From the NCBI RefSeq assembly GCF_944325745.1, contig NZ_CALVBG010000003.1:1-41711 (forward strand): a stretch of DNA of 41,711 nucleotides. Direction: 5' to 3'. This document shows, in pieces, positions 14,517 to 21,492 of this stretch. This DNA comes from an uncultured Faecalicoccus sp. (lineage in GTDB: Bacteria > Bacillota_I > Bacilli_A > Erysipelotrichales > Erysipelotrichaceae). The first letter of the stretch is position 1. Every line of letters starts with the position of its first letter. The position numbers were made by a program, and so were the translations under genes. Under the pieces are notes generated by a model. That model was not told where the DNA came from, did not search any database, and saw nothing but the letters and a program-made list of their open reading frames with translations.

Positions 14517-14942
14517 TCAAAAACCCCCATTTTCCCGATCTAAAAATCCTTGTAAAATCTCAACTGCTGCGAGTTGATCAATTACTTTCTTGCGCTTCTT
14601 TCTCGAAACATCCCCTTCTAATAAGATTCGAGTCGCACTTACGGTCGTTAACCGTTCATCCCAAAGCGTAACATCATAACCTTCTTTTTTTAATTCTTCC
14701 GCAAACTGAATTGAAATCTGAGCACGTTCCCCAATATCACCATTCATATGTTTAGGAAGGCCCAGAACAACTTTCTTTACCTGATGCTCTTCCAATAATT
14801 CTAATACTTGATCAAAGCAGAGGTCATAATCATCATGCGGGAAACGAATCGTTTTTAAAGTTCGCGCAACCATCCCGGTGCCATCACTAATCGCTACCCC
14901 ACACGTTACACTTCCAAGGTCTAAGCCAATAACACGAGCCAT
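14517..14942 (-). CDS. ruvX: RuvX/YqgF family putative pre-16S rRNA nuclease
   Basis: RNase H-fold nuclease proposed to process the 5' end of 16S rRNA, formerly called a Holliday junction resolvase. It has 141 residues with the acidic motif IGLDLGSVTCGVAISD, VVLGLPKHMNGDIGERA, and WDERLTTVSATRILLEGDVSRKKRKKVIDQLAAVEILQGFLD. The ATG overlaps the ireB stop (TAATG), so translation is coupled. Confidence 0.95.
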   Translation of the reverse strand: MARVIGLDLGSVTCGVAISDGTGMVARTLKTIRFPHDDYDLCFDQVLELLEEHQVKKVVLGLPKHMNGDIGERAQISIQFAEELKKEGYDVTLWDERLTTVSATRILLEGDVSRKKRKKVIDQLAAVEILQGFLDRENGGF

Positions 14943-15193
14943 TATTTTTCCAAATAGGCACGGACAAGTTCTTCAATGATCTCGTACCGTTCAATACGCT
15001 GAATCAAATTTCTCGCATTTTTATGAGAAGAAATATACGCTGGATCATTGCTGATCAAATAACCGGCAATCTGGTTGACCGAATTATATCCTCTTTCTTC
15101 CAACGCTTCGCTTACTTCACGTAAAATGGATTTAATATTCTCACGGCGTATCTCTTCCGTGGTAAATGTCATAGTTTCTGTAATGTCTTTCAT
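14942..15193 (-). CDS. ireB: IreB family regulatory phosphoprotein (UPF0297)
   Basis: A protein of 83 residues, homologous to IreB of Enterococcus, which is phosphorylated by the PASTA kinase IreK and modulates cephalosporin tolerance. The start MKDITETMTFTTEE at 15193 has AAGGAG nine bases upstream. The body ILREVSEALEERGYNSVNQIAGYLISNDPAYISSHKNARNLI is characteristic. Threonines near the N-terminus could be phosphorylation sites, by analogy only. It is first in a four-gene operon ending in mltG. Confidence 0.93.
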   Translation of the reverse strand: MKDITETMTFTTEEIRRENIKSILREVSEALEERGYNSVNQIAGYLISNDPAYISSHKNARNLIQRIERYEIIEELVRAYLEK

Positions 15194-15218
15194 ACTATCA
15201 CACTCCTTGGCTATAGGT

Positions 15219-15224
15219 ATTATA
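15219..15224 (-). promoter_or_regulatory. -10 box for ireB-ruvX-DUF1292-mltG
   Basis: Minus strand TATAAT within TCATGTATAATAC, about 25 bases before the ireB start. The -35 at 17 bases (TTTCTT) is weak. The surrounding 19 bases closely match the rny promoter. Confidence 0.6.
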
Positions 15225-15263
15225 CATGAAACGAAATAAAAAAGAAACACTTTACATCAAACT

Positions 15264-15303: not shown

Positions 15304-17925
15304 TTAATTTAGACTGTTTTTAATAGTTTCCAGCGCCTCTTCCAGCTTAGAAACATCTTTTCCACCGGCTTGTGCCAAATCAGGTTTACCACCGCCATTG
15401 CCTTGGCAGATCTGAGATGCCGTTTTGACTAGATTGCCTGAATGGATCCCTTTAGCGATTGCATTTTTACCAGCACCGCAAACAAAAATCAGTTTATCCT
15501 CATTCACGCTGGCAAAGAAACAAATCAGATCCGGATCTTGACTCTTAAGATTGGATACGATTTCTTTCAAAGATTTTCCATCCATGTTAGAAACCTTGCG
15601 GATCAGTACTTTATAATCATTGACCTCTTTGGCATCCTGCAGCCATTCTTTCGATTTTAAGGCAAGAATTTGATTCTTTAAATTTTCGTTTTCTTTTTGT
15701 AAGGCTTTATTTTGTTCAAAGAAAGACTCCATTTTATGATCTAATTCTTTAATACTCTTTTGTTTGGCGCTTGCCGCAATATTTTCAAGCATCTTATGTT
15801 CGAAAACAAAGTCTTTATAGGCTTCCATTCTTGTCTTCGCGGTAATACGACGGACATCCGATCCAATGCTTTCTTCACTGATGATCTTGCATAAGCCGAT
15901 CTGAGCCGTATTATCTACGTGGCAGCCACCGCAGAATTCTTTGGAAACCGATCCCATCGTAACAACACGTACGCGATCACCATACTTTTCATTAAATAAG
16001 GCCGTCGCTCCCGATTGACGGGCCTTTTCAATATCCATGACTTCTTTTTGGACAGGATAGGCTGCCTGAATATATTCATTGACCAAACGTTCTACTTCTT
16101 CCAGCTGACTCGGTGTTACTTTTTCGTAATGGTTAAAATCAAAGCGCAGATATTCGTCACAAACATAAGATCCTGCCTGTGAAATATGATCGCCAACTAC
16201 CTGTTTTAAAGCACTTTGCAGCAAATGTGTACAAGAGTGATTCGCGGTAATGGCTTCACGACGTTGACGATCCACCGTTTGGGATAGAAGCATTCCGTCC
16301 TGAACAGTTCCATTTTCCAAAACGATATGAACCAAAGATTGGCCATTCGGAGCTTTTTGCACATCGACAACGCGCGCTTTAAAGCCTTCCGATTCTACCG
16401 CACCCGTATCTGCAACTTGTCCTCCGCTTTCTGCATAGAAACATGTTTGATCGAAGATGATATCGCCTTCATCGCTCAGAGAATCGACACGGTTTCCCTC
16501 TTTAAAGACACCAATCACTTTCCCCTCACAAGAAAGATGATCATAGCCGATATAAGCGCTTGGATCTGTAAAGTTCATCAGATCTTGATGTTGAGAAGAG
16601 AAAGATTCTTTTGCGTTTCGGGCATTTCTTGCTCTTTCTTTTTGTTTTTCCATCTGTTCATCGAATGCTTCACGTGAAACCGTCAATCCACTTTCTTCAG
16701 CGATTTCTTGGGTAAGTTCAAATGGGAATCCATAAGTATCATAAAGCCGGAAAACAACTTCTCCGGATAACGTGCCATCCGTTGCCTTGGCAATCTCATC
16801 ATCCAGCAAGGCTTGTCCGTTCTTCAAAGTTTTCTTAAACGTATCCTCTTCAATGCGGATCAGTTTTTGGTTCAATTCAACATGTTCTTGTAAGTAAGGA
16901 TAGAAATCTTTCATCGCATCCGCTACAACCGGTACTAAACGATATAAGAAAGAGTCTTCCAAACCAAGCTTTAAACCATAGCGGACAGCACGGCGCAATA
17001 CACGACGCAAAACATAACCGCGGCCGCTGTTCGAAAAGTTTGCTCCGTCACTCAACGCAAAAGTAACGGTACGGATATGGTCGGCAATGACACGATATGC
17101 CATTTTATATTCTCCTTCATAAGGATGTTTGGCCATTTTTTCGGTCGCACGGATAATCGGCAAAAACAGATCTGTATCAAAGTTTGTTTCACCATCCTGG
17201 ATCAAAGCGACCAAACGTTCCAATCCCATACCAGTATCGATATTTTTCTGTGGAAGTTCTTTATAATCTTTTCGATCGATCGAAGGATCGCAGTCAAACT
17301 GAGAGAAGACAATATTCCATACCTCGACATATCGATCGTTTTCTAATTCTTCAAAAAACAAGCGTTCTCCCAATCCATCGGGATCATACTTAGGACCTCT
17401 GTCAAAAAAGATCTCAGAATCCGGTCCTCCAGGACCTTTTCCAATCTCCCAAAAATTATCCATCGTTCTTAAAATATGCTTCGGATCTACTCCACATTTT
17501 TCCGTCCAAATGCGGTAAGCATCATCATCGTCGGTATACACGGAAATATAGAGACGATCTTTATCGATGCCCATCCATTCTTCGCTCGTTAAAAATTCCC
17601 AGGCGAAGGGAATGGCTTCCTCTTTAAAATAGTCTCCGATACTGAAGTTACCCAACATTTCAAAAAAGGTATGATGTCGAGCCGTTTTCCCAACATTTTC
17701 GATATCGTTGGTACGAATGCTTTTCTGTGCATTGGCAATTCGATTGCTTCTAGGTTTTTCACTTCCGTCAAAATATTTTTTCAAAGCAGCCACACCGGCA
17801 TTGATCCACAGCAAAGTGGGATCGTTGTTTGGGATCAGACTTGCTCCTGGTTCAATCATATGTCCTTTACTTTTAAAGAAATCCAAAAACATTTGACGAA
17901 CTTGATTCCCGGTTAATTCACGCAT
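15304..17925 (-). CDS. alaS: Alanyl-tRNA synthetase
   Basis: Charges tRNA-Ala and hydrolyses mischarged Ser/Gly-tRNA. It has 873 residues. The start MRELTGNQVRQMFLDFF at 17925 has AGGAGG seven bases upstream; an ATG six bases earlier touches the site. The class II core includes ARHHTFFEMLGNFSIGDYF and GMGLERL. Editing-domain zinc ligands appear in NHSCTHLL and CGGCHVD. The C-Ala domain with GNGGGKPDLAQAGG closes the protein. Expression is controlled by an upstream T-box. Confidence 0.98.
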   Translation of the reverse strand: MRELTGNQVRQMFLDFFKSKGHMIEPGASLIPNNDPTLLWINAGVAALKKYFDGSEKPRSNRIANAQKSIRTNDIENVGKTARHHTFFEMLGNFSIGDYFKEEAIPFAWEFLTSEEWMGIDKDRLYISVYTDDDDAYRIWTEKCGVDPKHILRTMDNFWEIGKGPGGPDSEIFFDRGPKYDPDGLGERLFFEELENDRYVEVWNIVFSQFDCDPSIDRKDYKELPQKNIDTGMGLERLVALIQDGETNFDTDLFLPIIRATEKMAKHPYEGEYKMAYRVIADHIRTVTFALSDGANFSNSGRGYVLRRVLRRAVRYGLKLGLEDSFLYRLVPVVADAMKDFYPYLQEHVELNQKLIRIEEDTFKKTLKNGQALLDDEIAKATDGTLSGEVVFRLYDTYGFPFELTQEIAEESGLTVSREAFDEQMEKQKERARNARNAKESFSSQHQDLMNFTDPSAYIGYDHLSCEGKVIGVFKEGNRVDSLSDEGDIIFDQTCFYAESGGQVADTGAVESEGFKARVVDVQKAPNGQSLVHIVLENGTVQDGMLLSQTVDRQRREAITANHSCTHLLQSALKQVVGDHISQAGSYVCDEYLRFDFNHYEKVTPSQLEEVERLVNEYIQAAYPVQKEVMDIEKARQSGATALFNEKYGDRVRVVTMGSVSKEFCGGCHVDNTAQIGLCKIISEESIGSDVRRITAKTRMEAYKDFVFEHKMLENIAASAKQKSIKELDHKMESFFEQNKALQKENENLKNQILALKSKEWLQDAKEVNDYKVLIRKVSNMDGKSLKEIVSNLKSQDPDLICFFASVNEDKLIFVCGAGKNAIAKGIHSGNLVKTASQICQGNGGGKPDLAQAGGKDVSKLEEALETIKNSLN

Positions 17926-17944
17926 GTTCATTCCTCCTAGTAAA

Positions 17945-18150
17945 ATAAAAAAAACGTTCCTGCTTCTAGGAACGTAAAATTACGCGGTACCATCCTAGTT
18001 CGTTTTCATTGAAAACGCACTTAATTGATCGTTAACGCTGAGCGCGGCCTAACTCCAAAGGAGCTTCAAAGATTCTCACTGCAAGGCTTGCACCTTCCGC
18101 CTTGTCTCTCAATGTCCCGATCTTCTTCTACTTATCTTTTTCAATGTTAG
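17945..18150 (-). promoter_or_regulatory. T-box riboswitch, alanine type
   Basis: A tRNA-sensing leader before alaS. The antiterminator core AGGATGGTACCGCG (17983-17996) has the UGGU bulge that pairs with the ACCA end of uncharged tRNA-Ala. Stem I carries the AGUA element (18129-18132) opposite GAA (18065-18067), directly followed by GCU (18062-18064), an Ala codon that acts as the specifier. The competing terminator is ACGTTCC/GGAACGT (arms 17969-17975 and 17954-17960), followed by eight Us. All expected parts are present. Confidence 0.95.
17947..17975 (-). terminator. T-box regulated terminator before alaS
   Basis: Hairpin ACGTTCC-(8 bases)-GGAACGT with a U-run at 17954-17947, about 20 bases before the alaS ATG. 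It is the off-state of the T-box. Confidence 0.93.
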
Positions 18151-18161
18151 ACGAATGAATG

Positions 18162-19463
18162 TTAACATCTTTTCAATATTTTTACAAGTAGTCTAAGACC
18201 TTCAATCAATTCATTTTGCCCCATATAAGCAAAAGATAGCGATAAAGTATGATCGACCAGAGGATCTAATGCGATTCCCTGTTGAAAACTGGCTTCCATC
18301 AATTGGTTTGGATCGATGTGCGGTAGATCAATGCAGTAACAAAAATAAACCTCTTTAAAAATCAAATTCGGAAAATGATCTTCTAGTATGGTTCGAGTAA
18401 TTTGATCTTTTATGGCATACTCTTTTTTTAATTTCCGCAAGTGCTTCTCCATATGACCATCTTCCATATAACGAGCTAGCGCAAGCTGTTCAAACTTCGA
18501 TGAAGTGGGTCCAAACTTGTCTTTATGATTCAGATATCTTTGCAGATACTCTGGATTCAAGACCATATAACTTAAACGCAATGAAGGCAAAAGCAAGCGC
18601 GAAAAAGATCCAAAATAAATAACGTTATCATATGGACTGGCACCTTGTAAGGAGTGTCTTGGCTTCGATCGATAATTCAATTCTCCATTATAATCATCTT
18701 CTAGGATCAAGAAATGGTTACGATGAGAAACATCAATCAGCGCATCTCGAGTCTTTCGATCAAGATACCTGAAATCCGATCCGAAACAAGAGCTGTTGAT
18801 ATAGAATATATCGATCGAGCTAGAATCCAAATCTTTGATCAAAGTTTCAGAATCAAATTGAACACACGAAAAGCCAAAGGAGCGTAAAACATAGAGAACC
18901 TGGCTGTCGACATGTTTTTCCATACCAAACGTATATGTTTTCGGACATAACGAACAAAATTGATACAGAAGAGTTTGAAAACTGGAACCCACTAAAATAG
19001 ATTTCTCTGTTGTGAGCACCCCGCGATGGTGATAAGCATATTCACTTAAGGCCAAGCGCAATCTTTTTTCACCTTGTGCATCTCCATAAGTAGCCATGGC
19101 TTTTGAATCCTGGAACACTTCTTTCATATATCGTTTCCAGATTTTAAGATCAAAAGCTTCCAAACTGACAGAATTTAAACGGAAATCATACCGGATCCAA
19201 GAGTCTTCTTTCTGGTTTGTCGCCGTCTGCACTTGATGATGTTTAAGATGCTGCGGCAAAATATCGACTACATAGCCTTTCTGCGGCAAGCTCTTGATAT
19301 ACCCATCTAAGATAAGACGATCATAGGCATGTTCAATTGTCGTCTTCGACACCCCGAATAAAAGCGTCGATTGCCGAATGCTGGGCAAAGTCTCTCCTCG
19401 TTTCAGATGTCCTTCCAAAATATCTTGTTTCAATTTTTCACTGACGATTTCATACTTCTTCAT
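18162..19463 (-). CDS. MocR/PdxR-like regulator (GntR HTH + aminotransferase fold), probably PLP-blind
   Basis: A 433-residue fusion of an N-terminal GntR winged helix (residues 1-68, LPSIRQSTLLFGVSKTTIEHAYDRL) with a fold-type I aminotransferase-like domain. MocR proteins sense pyridoxal phosphate through a lysine in an FSK motif; here that segment reads FGSFSRLLLPSLRLSY, so Arg289 replaces the lysine. The usual PSHQ.P.G motif is also replaced (NSSCFGSDFRYL). EDDYNGEL is kept. Loss of the Schiff-base lysine argues against covalent PLP binding. It is divergent from an ECF S component across 87 bases with direct repeats, so control of that transporter is likely. Confidence 0.88.
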   Translation of the reverse strand: MKKYEIVSEKLKQDILEGHLKRGETLPSIRQSTLLFGVSKTTIEHAYDRLILDGYIKSLPQKGYVVDILPQHLKHHQVQTATNQKEDSWIRYDFRLNSVSLEAFDLKIWKRYMKEVFQDSKAMATYGDAQGEKRLRLALSEYAYHHRGVLTTEKSILVGSSFQTLLYQFCSLCPKTYTFGMEKHVDSQVLYVLRSFGFSCVQFDSETLIKDLDSSSIDIFYINSSCFGSDFRYLDRKTRDALIDVSHRNHFLILEDDYNGELNYRSKPRHSLQGASPYDNVIYFGSFSRLLLPSLRLSYMVLNPEYLQRYLNHKDKFGPTSSKFEQLALARYMEDGHMEKHLRKLKKEYAIKDQITRTILEDHFPNLIFKEVYFCYCIDLPHIDPNQLMEASFQQGIALDPLVDHTLSLSFAYMGQNELIEGLRLLVKILKRC

Positions 19464-19489
19464 AATCTGTCCTCTTAAAAAATATCATA

Positions 19490-19524
19490 ATTGTATATTT
19501 TATTAAAGACACTTATTGTTTATT
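19490..19524. promoter_or_regulatory. Direct-repeat operator candidate for the MocR protein
   Basis: ATTGTATATT (19490-19499) and ATTGTTTATT (19515-19524) match at nine of ten positions and start 25 bases apart. They lie between the divergent MocR and ECF genes. MocR regulators such as GabR and PdxR bind spaced direct repeats, so this is the best operator candidate. A weak plus-strand promoter, TTGTAT-17-TATTGT (19491-19519), overlaps it. Confidence 0.45.
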
Positions 19525-20141: not shown

Positions 20142-20228
20142 CCCCGGGTGGTGAAATTGGTAGACGCAGTGGACTCAAAATCCACCGGTAGCGATACCGT
20201 GCCAGTTCGAGTCTGGCCTCGGGGACCA
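20142..20228 (+). tRNA. tRNA-Leu (anticodon CAA)
   Basis: An 87-base class II tRNA. The acceptor stem is CCCCGGG/CTCGGGG. The anticodon stem GTGGA/TCCAC encloses the loop CTCAAAA, giving anticodon CAA for UUG codons. There is a long variable arm (CGGTAGCGATACCG) and a T-arm GCCAG-TTCGAGT-CTGGC. CCA is encoded (20226-20228). It has its own promoter and terminator. Confidence 0.97.
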
Positions 20229-20262: not shown

Positions 20263-20310
20263 ATATCAGCGTGAATGAGAAAGGAACTAGGAATTCATTT
20301 TGGATTCGAC

Positions 20311-20316
20311 TATAAT
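20311..20316 (+). promoter_or_regulatory. -10 box abutting the mnmA start
   Basis: TATAAT ends six bases before the mnmA ATG, which places the expected transcription start at or next to the initiation codon. No convincing -35 and no Shine-Dalgarno sequence is visible, so a leaderless mRNA is possible. Confidence 0.4.
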
Positions 20317-20322
20317 GAAAAT

Positions 20323-21492
20323 ATGAAAAAAGTGCTTGTAGGACTCAGCGGCGGAGTCGATTCGGCAGTAGCCGCCTATTTATTAAAAGAACAAGGATAT
20401 GATGTCACCTGTTGTTTTATGAGAAACTGGGATTCCTTTGCGAATAACGATATCGAAGGAAATCCAACGATCCAAGATGACATCTGTCCGCAAGAACAAG
20501 ATTATCTCGATGCCAAAGCGGTAGCGGATCATTTGGGACTCGAATTACAAAGAGTGGATTTCATTCAAGAGTATTGGAATGACGTTTTTATGACCTTTTT
20601 AAATGAATATGAAAAAGGTAGAACTCCAAACCCTGATATTTTGTGCAACAAATATATTAAATTTGATGCCTTTTTTGAATATGCCATGAAAAATGGTTTT
20701 GATTATGTTGCGACCGGACATTATTGTTCCAATCAAGAAATTGACGGTTTTATGTATTTGACAAAAGCTGCCGATCAGAACAAGGATCAAACTTATTTCC
20801 TCTGTCAAATCAATGAAAGAGCGCTCAAAAAAACTCTTTTCCCGCTAGGAACACTCACAAAACCAGAAGTCAGAGAGATTGCGCAAAAACTTCATTTAGA
20901 CAGTGTTTCATCTAAAAAGGATAGTACGGGGATCTGTTTTATTGGTGAGCGAAATTTTCGTCAATTCTTATCCAATTATCTTCCCAGTCAAGAGGGCGAT
21001 ATCGTCGATATTGATACCGGAAAAAAGATTGCCCGACATGTCGGAGTCCTTTATTATACAATCGGACAGCGAAAAGGCTTAAATATCGATCACGAAAAAG
21101 GACCTTGGTTTGTTTGCGGCAAAGATGTAAAAAAGAATATCTTGTTTGTTTGCCGCGTCGATCACAAGGAATGGCTTTATTCAAATTCTTGTTTGGTAAA
21201 AGGAATCAACTGGCTCGTACCAGATCCTGATCAAATCGCAACATCCTTAGGATGTAAATTTCGATATCGACAGCCCGATCAGCCTGTCCAGATCCAGTTG
21301 GTTTCAAAAGACAGCGTCTTAGTGACTTATCCTCAAAAAATCGCCTCTGTTACAGTAGGTCAAGAAGCGGTTTTCTATGACCATCAAATCTGTCTGGGGG
21401 GCGGTGTCATTGAAGAAGTTTACATCGATGACGAAGATTTAAACTCGAAGATCTTGAAAACCTATCAGGAGAAACAATTTGGAAACGATTAA
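20323..21492 (+). CDS. mnmA: tRNA-specific 2-thiouridylase MnmA
   Basis: Thiolates U34 of tRNA-Lys, -Glu and -Gln, using sulfur relayed from a cysteine desulfurase. It has 389 residues. The start MKKVLVGLSGGVDS at 20323 fits the family, with the PP-loop SGGVDS at residues 9-14. The first catalytic Cys is in NPDILCNKYIKF and the second in STGICFIGERNFRQFL. YTIGQRKGLNI and the C-terminal barrel follow. There is no Shine-Dalgarno sequence before this ATG. The last 14 bases overlap recD2. Confidence 0.96.
   Translation: MKKVLVGLSGGVDSAVAAYLLKEQGYDVTCCFMRNWDSFANNDIEGNPTIQDDICPQEQDYLDAKAVADHLGLELQRVDFIQEYWNDVFMTFLNEYEKGRTPNPDILCNKYIKFDAFFEYAMKNGFDYVATGHYCSNQEIDGFMYLTKAADQNKDQTYFLCQINERALKKTLFPLGTLTKPEVREIAQKLHLDSVSSKKDSTGICFIGERNFRQFLSNYLPSQEGDIVDIDTGKKIARHVGVLYYTIGQRKGLNIDHEKGPWFVCGKDVKKNILFVCRVDHKEWLYSNSCLVKGINWLVPDPDQIATSLGCKFRYRQPDQPVQIQLVSKDSVLVTYPQKIASVTVGQEAVFYDHQICLGGGVIEEVYIDDEDLNSKILKTYQEKQFGND

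Follow-up and report, generated by a model that had tools for sequence, protein, structure and literature searches.

How does a MocR-type regulator read its signal when the lysine that forms the internal aldimine with PLP is missing? MocR signalling is taken to hinge on that lysine, and the excerpts of the MocR literature consulted here, with most subscription journals outside the search, report no natural member without it. A first-pass annotation of the window analysed here, a 41,711-nucleotide stretch of a Faecalicoccus assembly (79.66% complete, 109 contigs), had proposed that one gene encodes such a protein, and that its domain may bind a different ligand or hold PLP non-covalently. Such a protein does exist: it belongs to a conserved offshoot of the PdxR kind that has no such lysine, and it has a likely target gene and operator (Table 1). 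Because it adjoins a gene that is probably for vitamin B6 uptake and a DNA control site that is conserved, this regulator may read vitamin B6 without the usual covalent bond.

Table 1. Features of the regulator/S-component locus, in window coordinates.
Feature	Position	Strand	Basis
MocR/PdxR-type regulator without PLP lysine, 433 aa	18162..19463	-	ATG start, exact ORF limits
GntR winged helix-turn-helix, residues 4-66	19266..19454	-	PF00392, 47.1 bits
Aminotransferase-fold domain, residues ~85-433	18165..19211	-	PF00155 at 107-375 and structural match to GabR/PdxR over 88-433
Asp186 where GabR has Tyr205; ring stacking lost	18906..18908	-	PDB alignment; PMC6917764 (excerpted text)
Asp256, equivalent to GabR Asp279 (pyridine nitrogen)	18696..18698	-	PDB alignment; GabR role from PMC6917764 (excerpted text); invariant in 20/20 Arg rows
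CGC codon of Arg289, in the place of the PLP lysine	18597..18599	-	PDB alignment
Arg296, equivalent to GabR Arg319 (phosphate)	18576..18578	-	PDB alignment; GabR role from PMC6917764 (excerpted text); invariant in 20/20 Arg rows
Putative three-box operator CTGTCC-N18-TTGTATATTTT-N7-ACA	19467..19511	+	1 match in window, 0 in 100 shuffles
ECF transporter S component, HmpT-like, 166 aa	19551..20051	+	PF07155, 110.8 bits (cut-off 26.7); ATG start

The regulator has the winged helix and the fold-type-I aminotransferase domain of the MocR/GabR subfamily, both above the Pfam cut-offs (GntR HTH and Aminotran_1_2), but carries Arg289 in place of the subfamily's aldimine-forming lysine. An AlphaFold2 model built from a 48-row alignment (mean pLDDT 92.3) superimposes on GabR (5t4j; Z 39.9, rmsd 2.5, 344 residues) and on Bacillus clausii PdxR (7pq9; Z 38.9, rmsd 2.5, 345 residues, the match spanning residues 88–433). 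Its best NCBIfam model is PdxR (NF052282) at 287 bits, below the cut-off of 320, and this shortfall counts against our main reading. Since a check for the lysine showed it to be absent and the profile score does not reach its cut-off, we did not file the protein as PdxR. It resembles PdxR, both the B. clausii protein and the streptococcal one at pdxKU, in its fold over residues 88–433, its helix-turn-helix and its divergent placement, but differs in the arginine, the missing PSHQ.P.G motif, the missing stacking tyrosine and the sub-threshold score. On its other side, a T-box leader (RF00230, 111.2 bits; 17965–18153, minus strand) separates the regulator from a downstream gene read as alanyl-tRNA synthetase (15304–17931, minus strand), and an IreB family gene (PF06135, 118.5 bits) lies at 14942–15250 on the minus strand.

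The annotation's central observation, that FSK has become FSR, is borne out by phmmer against the PDB, which pairs residues 287–289 with the FSK of B. clausii PdxR (7pq9) and GabR (4n0b). There are no gaps between EDDY and FSR in this alignment, and Arg289 therefore occupies the aldimine-lysine position. EDDYNGE (255–261) and LRLSY (295–299) are retained, as had been read, and PSHQ.P.G is indeed absent, the regulator having NSSCFGSD where GabR has PSHQFP. On this alignment it follows that an internal aldimine would be impossible at its usual place.

To see how widespread the substitution is we assembled 133 loci (30 from first searches, 80 kept of 259 relatives in genome contigs and 23 from a set of 315 genomes of the order); 105 non-redundant proteins remained once 28 rows were dropped. 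The scan patterns were conserved peptides of the regulator itself, so that the sample is biased towards its relatives. Residue 289 is Lys in 82, Arg in 22 and Ser in one; before redundancy removal Arg stood in 39 of the 133 loci, several being one gene fetched twice. The arginine is written with all six codons (AGA 9, CGA 4, CGT 3, CGC 2, CGG 2, AGG 2). Its presence in 22 of 105 relatives, together with this codon spread, rules out an isolated oddity or a sequencing error. A quick tree calculated without column 289 needs at least five state changes and places 20 Arg rows in one part, with L064 and L098 as separate Arg tips, the position of L098 being unsure because of its long branch. If Lys is ancestral, Arg289 would have arisen at least three times. 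L009, which has Lys, falls among the Arg rows and may or may not be a reversal, a tree that keeps the 20 main Arg rows together in a single clade not being rejected (AU p 0.255). The serine protein (L021; G046:C44), a MocR-type sequence, is a single one on a long branch and lies beside a different S component. Among viral contigs searched with a single-protein query, six stretches fit a pattern and none encodes a relative.

Loss of a canonical cofactor residue is also what a decaying pseudogene might show. The gene is, however, under purifying selection (dN/dS about 0.055 against an 81%-identical orthologue, a rough value at dS 2.3), nine aligned rows contain no internal stop, and operator and S gene are conserved. 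We reject decay, to which we attach a negligible probability.

We then transferred the GabR pocket sites tabulated in the excerpted text of PMC6917764 to the regulator through the PDB alignment, which ends short of GabR Arg430. Asp279, Tyr281 and Arg319 of Bacillus subtilis GabR are kept as Asp256, Tyr258 and Arg296, whereas Lys312, Tyr205 and Arg207 are replaced by Arg289, Asp186 and Gln188; the proposed target differs as well, being an S component rather than GABA genes. Across the 20 main Arg rows fifty columns do not vary, 36 of them within residues 85–433, and these include Glu255, Asp256, Asp257, Ser286, Phe287, Ser288, Arg289 and Arg296. Residue 186, the Tyr205 position, is Phe or Tyr in all 65 Lys-keeping Asn259 sisters and Tyr or His in all 17 canonical rows, against Phe or Tyr in eight, His in two and another residue in ten of the 20 main Arg rows. 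The window's regulator is among these ten, which counts against an ordinary PLP site and against our main reading. The C-terminal stretch 395–412 has a median length of 18 residues in the 20 Arg rows, 19 in the 65 Lys sisters and 25 in the 17 canonical rows. The idea that PSHQ.P.G was lost along with the lysine is ruled out by the 65 Lys-keeping sisters (of 105 proteins), which are also without the motif; position 226 is His in 17 of 17 canonical rows against four of the 65 sisters.

Could PLP still be bound covalently, through another lysine? A conserved lysine elsewhere that reaches the cofactor was what the annotation had named as speaking against its reading, and there is a candidate in Lys323 (18495–18497, minus strand). 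It is kept in 19 of the 20 Arg rows, and by our placement its segment may reach the neighbouring active site in aminotransferases. But Lys323 is just as well kept in the EDDxNG regulators that have Lys289 (64 of 65 sisters) and is absent from all 17 canonical rows, so that it did not come about as a replacement for Lys289. An aldimine at Lys323 or a similar residue is very unlikely.

PLP can be held without the usual lysine, as it is in the K258R mutant of aspartate aminotransferase and in the His-bearing enzyme ColD. The pocket might also be blind. In that case the regulator would be locked in its apo form and constitutively drive an uptake gene that an auxotroph always needs, its aminotransferase domain serving only as a dimer scaffold. 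The loss of the ring-stacking residue in half of the Arg rows fits this, and so does the Lys302His mutant of EnuR, another MocR protein without its aldimine lysine, which according to the excerpted text of PMC8739950 loses PLP and the inducer response, still dimerises and acts constitutively. The EnuR substitution is man-made and to His, whereas the arginine here is natural and conserved. Against a blind pocket, Asp256, Arg289 and Arg296 are invariant in 20 of 20 main Arg rows, many of the 36 invariant columns lie in the segments around them, and the arginine is maintained through all six of its codons, although structural constraint could explain part of this conservation. We consider a ligand-blind regulator unlikely, and lean towards one to which a B6 vitamer binds with no Schiff base formed.

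The regulator and S-component genes are divergent and back to back, and the putative operator lies in the gap between them. Each of four Faecalicoccus genomes (G000–G003) has one such site, always in this gap, with no reversed matches. A relaxed pattern is present at 16 of the 22 Arg loci (simple letter shuffles: mean 0.02, maximum 1) and at 22 of the 82 Lys loci (mean 0.03, maximum 1). The six Arg loci with no match (L007, L040, L042, L043, L064 and L127) count against the main reading. Operator-bearing Lys loci include some beside pdxST (L081), pdxK (L095) or S components of another type. The operator is also present at L098, an Arg regulator that points away from pdxST; the names pdxST and pdxK are our reading of the sequences. 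L009 combines a Lys regulator with the window's type of S component and the operator.

The strict pattern occurs in 15 of 17 genomes, at 22 sites against four for the reversed pattern. Thirteen of the 22 lie before the window's S type; the other nine include intragenic sites that resemble chance matches. Two genomes in which regulator and S gene are not adjacent show with which gene the operator stays. In G208 the regulator is on a different contig from the S gene, and it is the S gene that the operator precedes. The S gene of G209 is 200 kb from one regulator copy; upstream of this S gene the boxes are the same except that the last ACA(G) reads GCAG, so that the strict pattern fails. No comparable site was seen beside the G208 regulator or beside one of the two regulator copies of G209. 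The regulator, which would bind as a dimer, very probably controls the S gene.

The S gene is read from its ATG, as a mechanically called reading frame (TTG at 19491) begins inside the operator. The model of the S component (pLDDT 89.1) has 4hzu_S as its nearest solved fold (TM 0.84, rmsd 1.9, E 1.3e-5), followed by RibU (E 1.3e-3). We take 4hzu_S for HmpT because the residue numbers in PMC4860826 fit that chain; the excerpted text of that paper gives pyridoxamine as the preferred substrate of HmpT and Glu41, His84, Gln87, Tyr120, Asn140 and Gln143 as pocket residues. Besides sharing the fold of HmpT/PdxU2, the window's protein keeps Tyr120, Asn140 and Gln143, but has Asp for Glu41, Lys for His84 and Glu for Gln87. 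Since three of the six named residues differ, its substrate may differ from that of HmpT, a point against the main reading. All 18 S components of the window's type have D41, K84, E87, Y120, N140 and Q143 (HmpT numbering), and no other S component in the same alignment has the full set. We judge that the protein probably carries a B6 vitamer. Another Faecalicoccus S component (L153, in G001) was considered as RibU, which NCBIfam does not support, its best model being a folate family at 33.6 bits, below the cut-off of 60; we therefore do not claim B6 by elimination of other vitamins. A tRNA-Leu (caa) lies at 20142–20228 on the plus strand, between the S component and a mnmA-like gene (20275–21492).

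This S type (profile score of at least 190) accompanies 17 of the 22 Arg regulators against one of the 82 Lys regulators, L009. The five Arg loci that have none (L007, L042, L043, L064 and L098) again count against the main reading. Four independent pairs were available, in which the S type changed the same way in 1.0 on average; with so few events we do not claim repeated evolution of the link, which is essentially that of one clade, a further point against the main reading. Among 18 genomes with an Arg regulator in the fetched loci, 17 have the S type, the exception, which also speaks against the main reading, being G017, in which it is absent at E 1e-25; five have a pyridoxal kinase.

The hosts have the make-up of B6 auxotrophs. 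PdxS is over its cut-off in none of 14 genomes (a match in G044 reaches 20.7 bits, below cut-off) and was found in 16 of the 315 genomes of the order; PdxJ is in none of 19. A search of G000–G003 with a kinase alignment returned no pyridoxal kinase at E 1e-20, and PF08543 matches there (18.8 to 28.6 bits, one reaching 30 with its neighbours, in frames of 305–308 aa) are read as sugar kinases. PdxS, PdxJ and a recognisable pyridoxal kinase are absent from all four Faecalicoccus genomes, three of which are 99–100% complete, and this makes the S component a candidate for PLP import. In some bacteria pyridoxal can be phosphorylated by kinases of the ThiD type. Across the 315 genomes the window's S type is found in 33 when the threshold is E 1e-38, which was set after a gap in the scores was seen, and in 71 at 1e-25. 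The 33 share just one genome, G025 (6% contaminated), with the 126 that have the other S type of PdxR-like loci (Fisher p 6.6e-7, kinship not corrected). A pyridoxal kinase is present in 11 of the 33 against 153 of the 282 others (p 0.027, kinship not corrected), a weak link between the S type and kinase absence. The excerpted text of PMC9997740 names Erysipelotrichia among the groups lacking both PLP pathways, and states that organisms without PLP synthesis and salvage must import PLP by mechanisms that are unknown.

These data bear on the annotation's two options, a different ligand or non-covalent PLP. Pocket and S component could have moved together to another small molecule, imported by the one and sensed by the other; the window's S type has Lys and Glu where HmpT has His84 and Gln87, and the stacking position is remodelled. 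The phosphate and pyridine-nitrogen anchors are invariant, however, the identical operator form occurs at pdxST and pdxK loci, one Arg regulator stands at pdxST itself, and the hosts are without PdxS, PdxJ and, bar one in 33 genomes, the other S type of PdxR-like loci. An unrelated ligand thus fits less well, and we hold it to be improbable. The better fit is PLP bound non-covalently, or some other B6 vitamer: both anchors are unchanged in the 20 main Arg rows, the operator is of a form common to Lys relatives at pdxST, pdxK and S-component genes and to the Arg regulator at pdxST, and the adjoining gene encodes an HmpT-like S component, its host having neither PdxS nor PdxJ.

We can outline how non-covalent sensing of B6 might work. 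PdxR targets B6 genes including pdxU (PMC5320631, PMC11619246; excerpted texts). By reporter assay the PdxR of group A Streptococcus activates pdxKU in the absence of B6, the transcript change being less clear; for B. clausii PdxR, PLP is described as a direct anti-activator (PMC11619246, excerpted text). In Faecalicoccus the regulator would bind the three-box operator and control the divergent S gene, whose product would bring a B6 vitamer into a cell unable to make PLP. Whether derived from that vitamer or taken up ready-made, PLP would then fill the old cofactor site non-covalently, with Arg296 on the phosphate, Asp256 on the pyridine nitrogen and Arg289 near the aldehyde. By analogy with PdxR, the apo regulator would keep the S gene on when B6 is low, and occupancy by PLP would turn it down. 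That a lysine-less PdxR offshoot controls B6 uptake and senses PLP non-covalently is, taken whole, about as probable as its opposite, and PLP as ligand and activation as sign are its presumptive parts.

A natural lineage that has exchanged Lys for Arg while keeping its operator, together with L009, which has Lys and the same kind of target, offers a direct way to test whether signalling of the PdxR type needs a Schiff base. For uptake of B6, perhaps of PLP, the adjacent S component provides a concrete candidate where no PLP synthesis gene or pyridoxal kinase is recognised, the gap named in the excerpted text of PMC9997740. A bolder version, in which the S component (D41, K84, E87) imports PLP itself and a private lysine-less PdxR reads free PLP reversibly and non-covalently in bacteria without PLP synthesis or known pyridoxal kinases, is a long shot. 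If true, it would supply a candidate for the missing PLP importer of that paper, and MocR signalling would need no Schiff base.

Relatives of the regulator also stand beside other genes. Twenty-three EDDxNG regulators (22 with Lys and one, L064, with Arg; among them L052, L060, L063–L070 and L074) are divergent from a gene read as murD-like, and none has the operator pattern. Four Lys relatives (L010, L011, L012 and L131) are divergent from a gene read as cysteine-synthase-like, likewise without the pattern. In G024 an extra operator match lies before a second S component (L192, L198; G024:C40:132966-133534), which is followed by an amidohydrolase-like gene.
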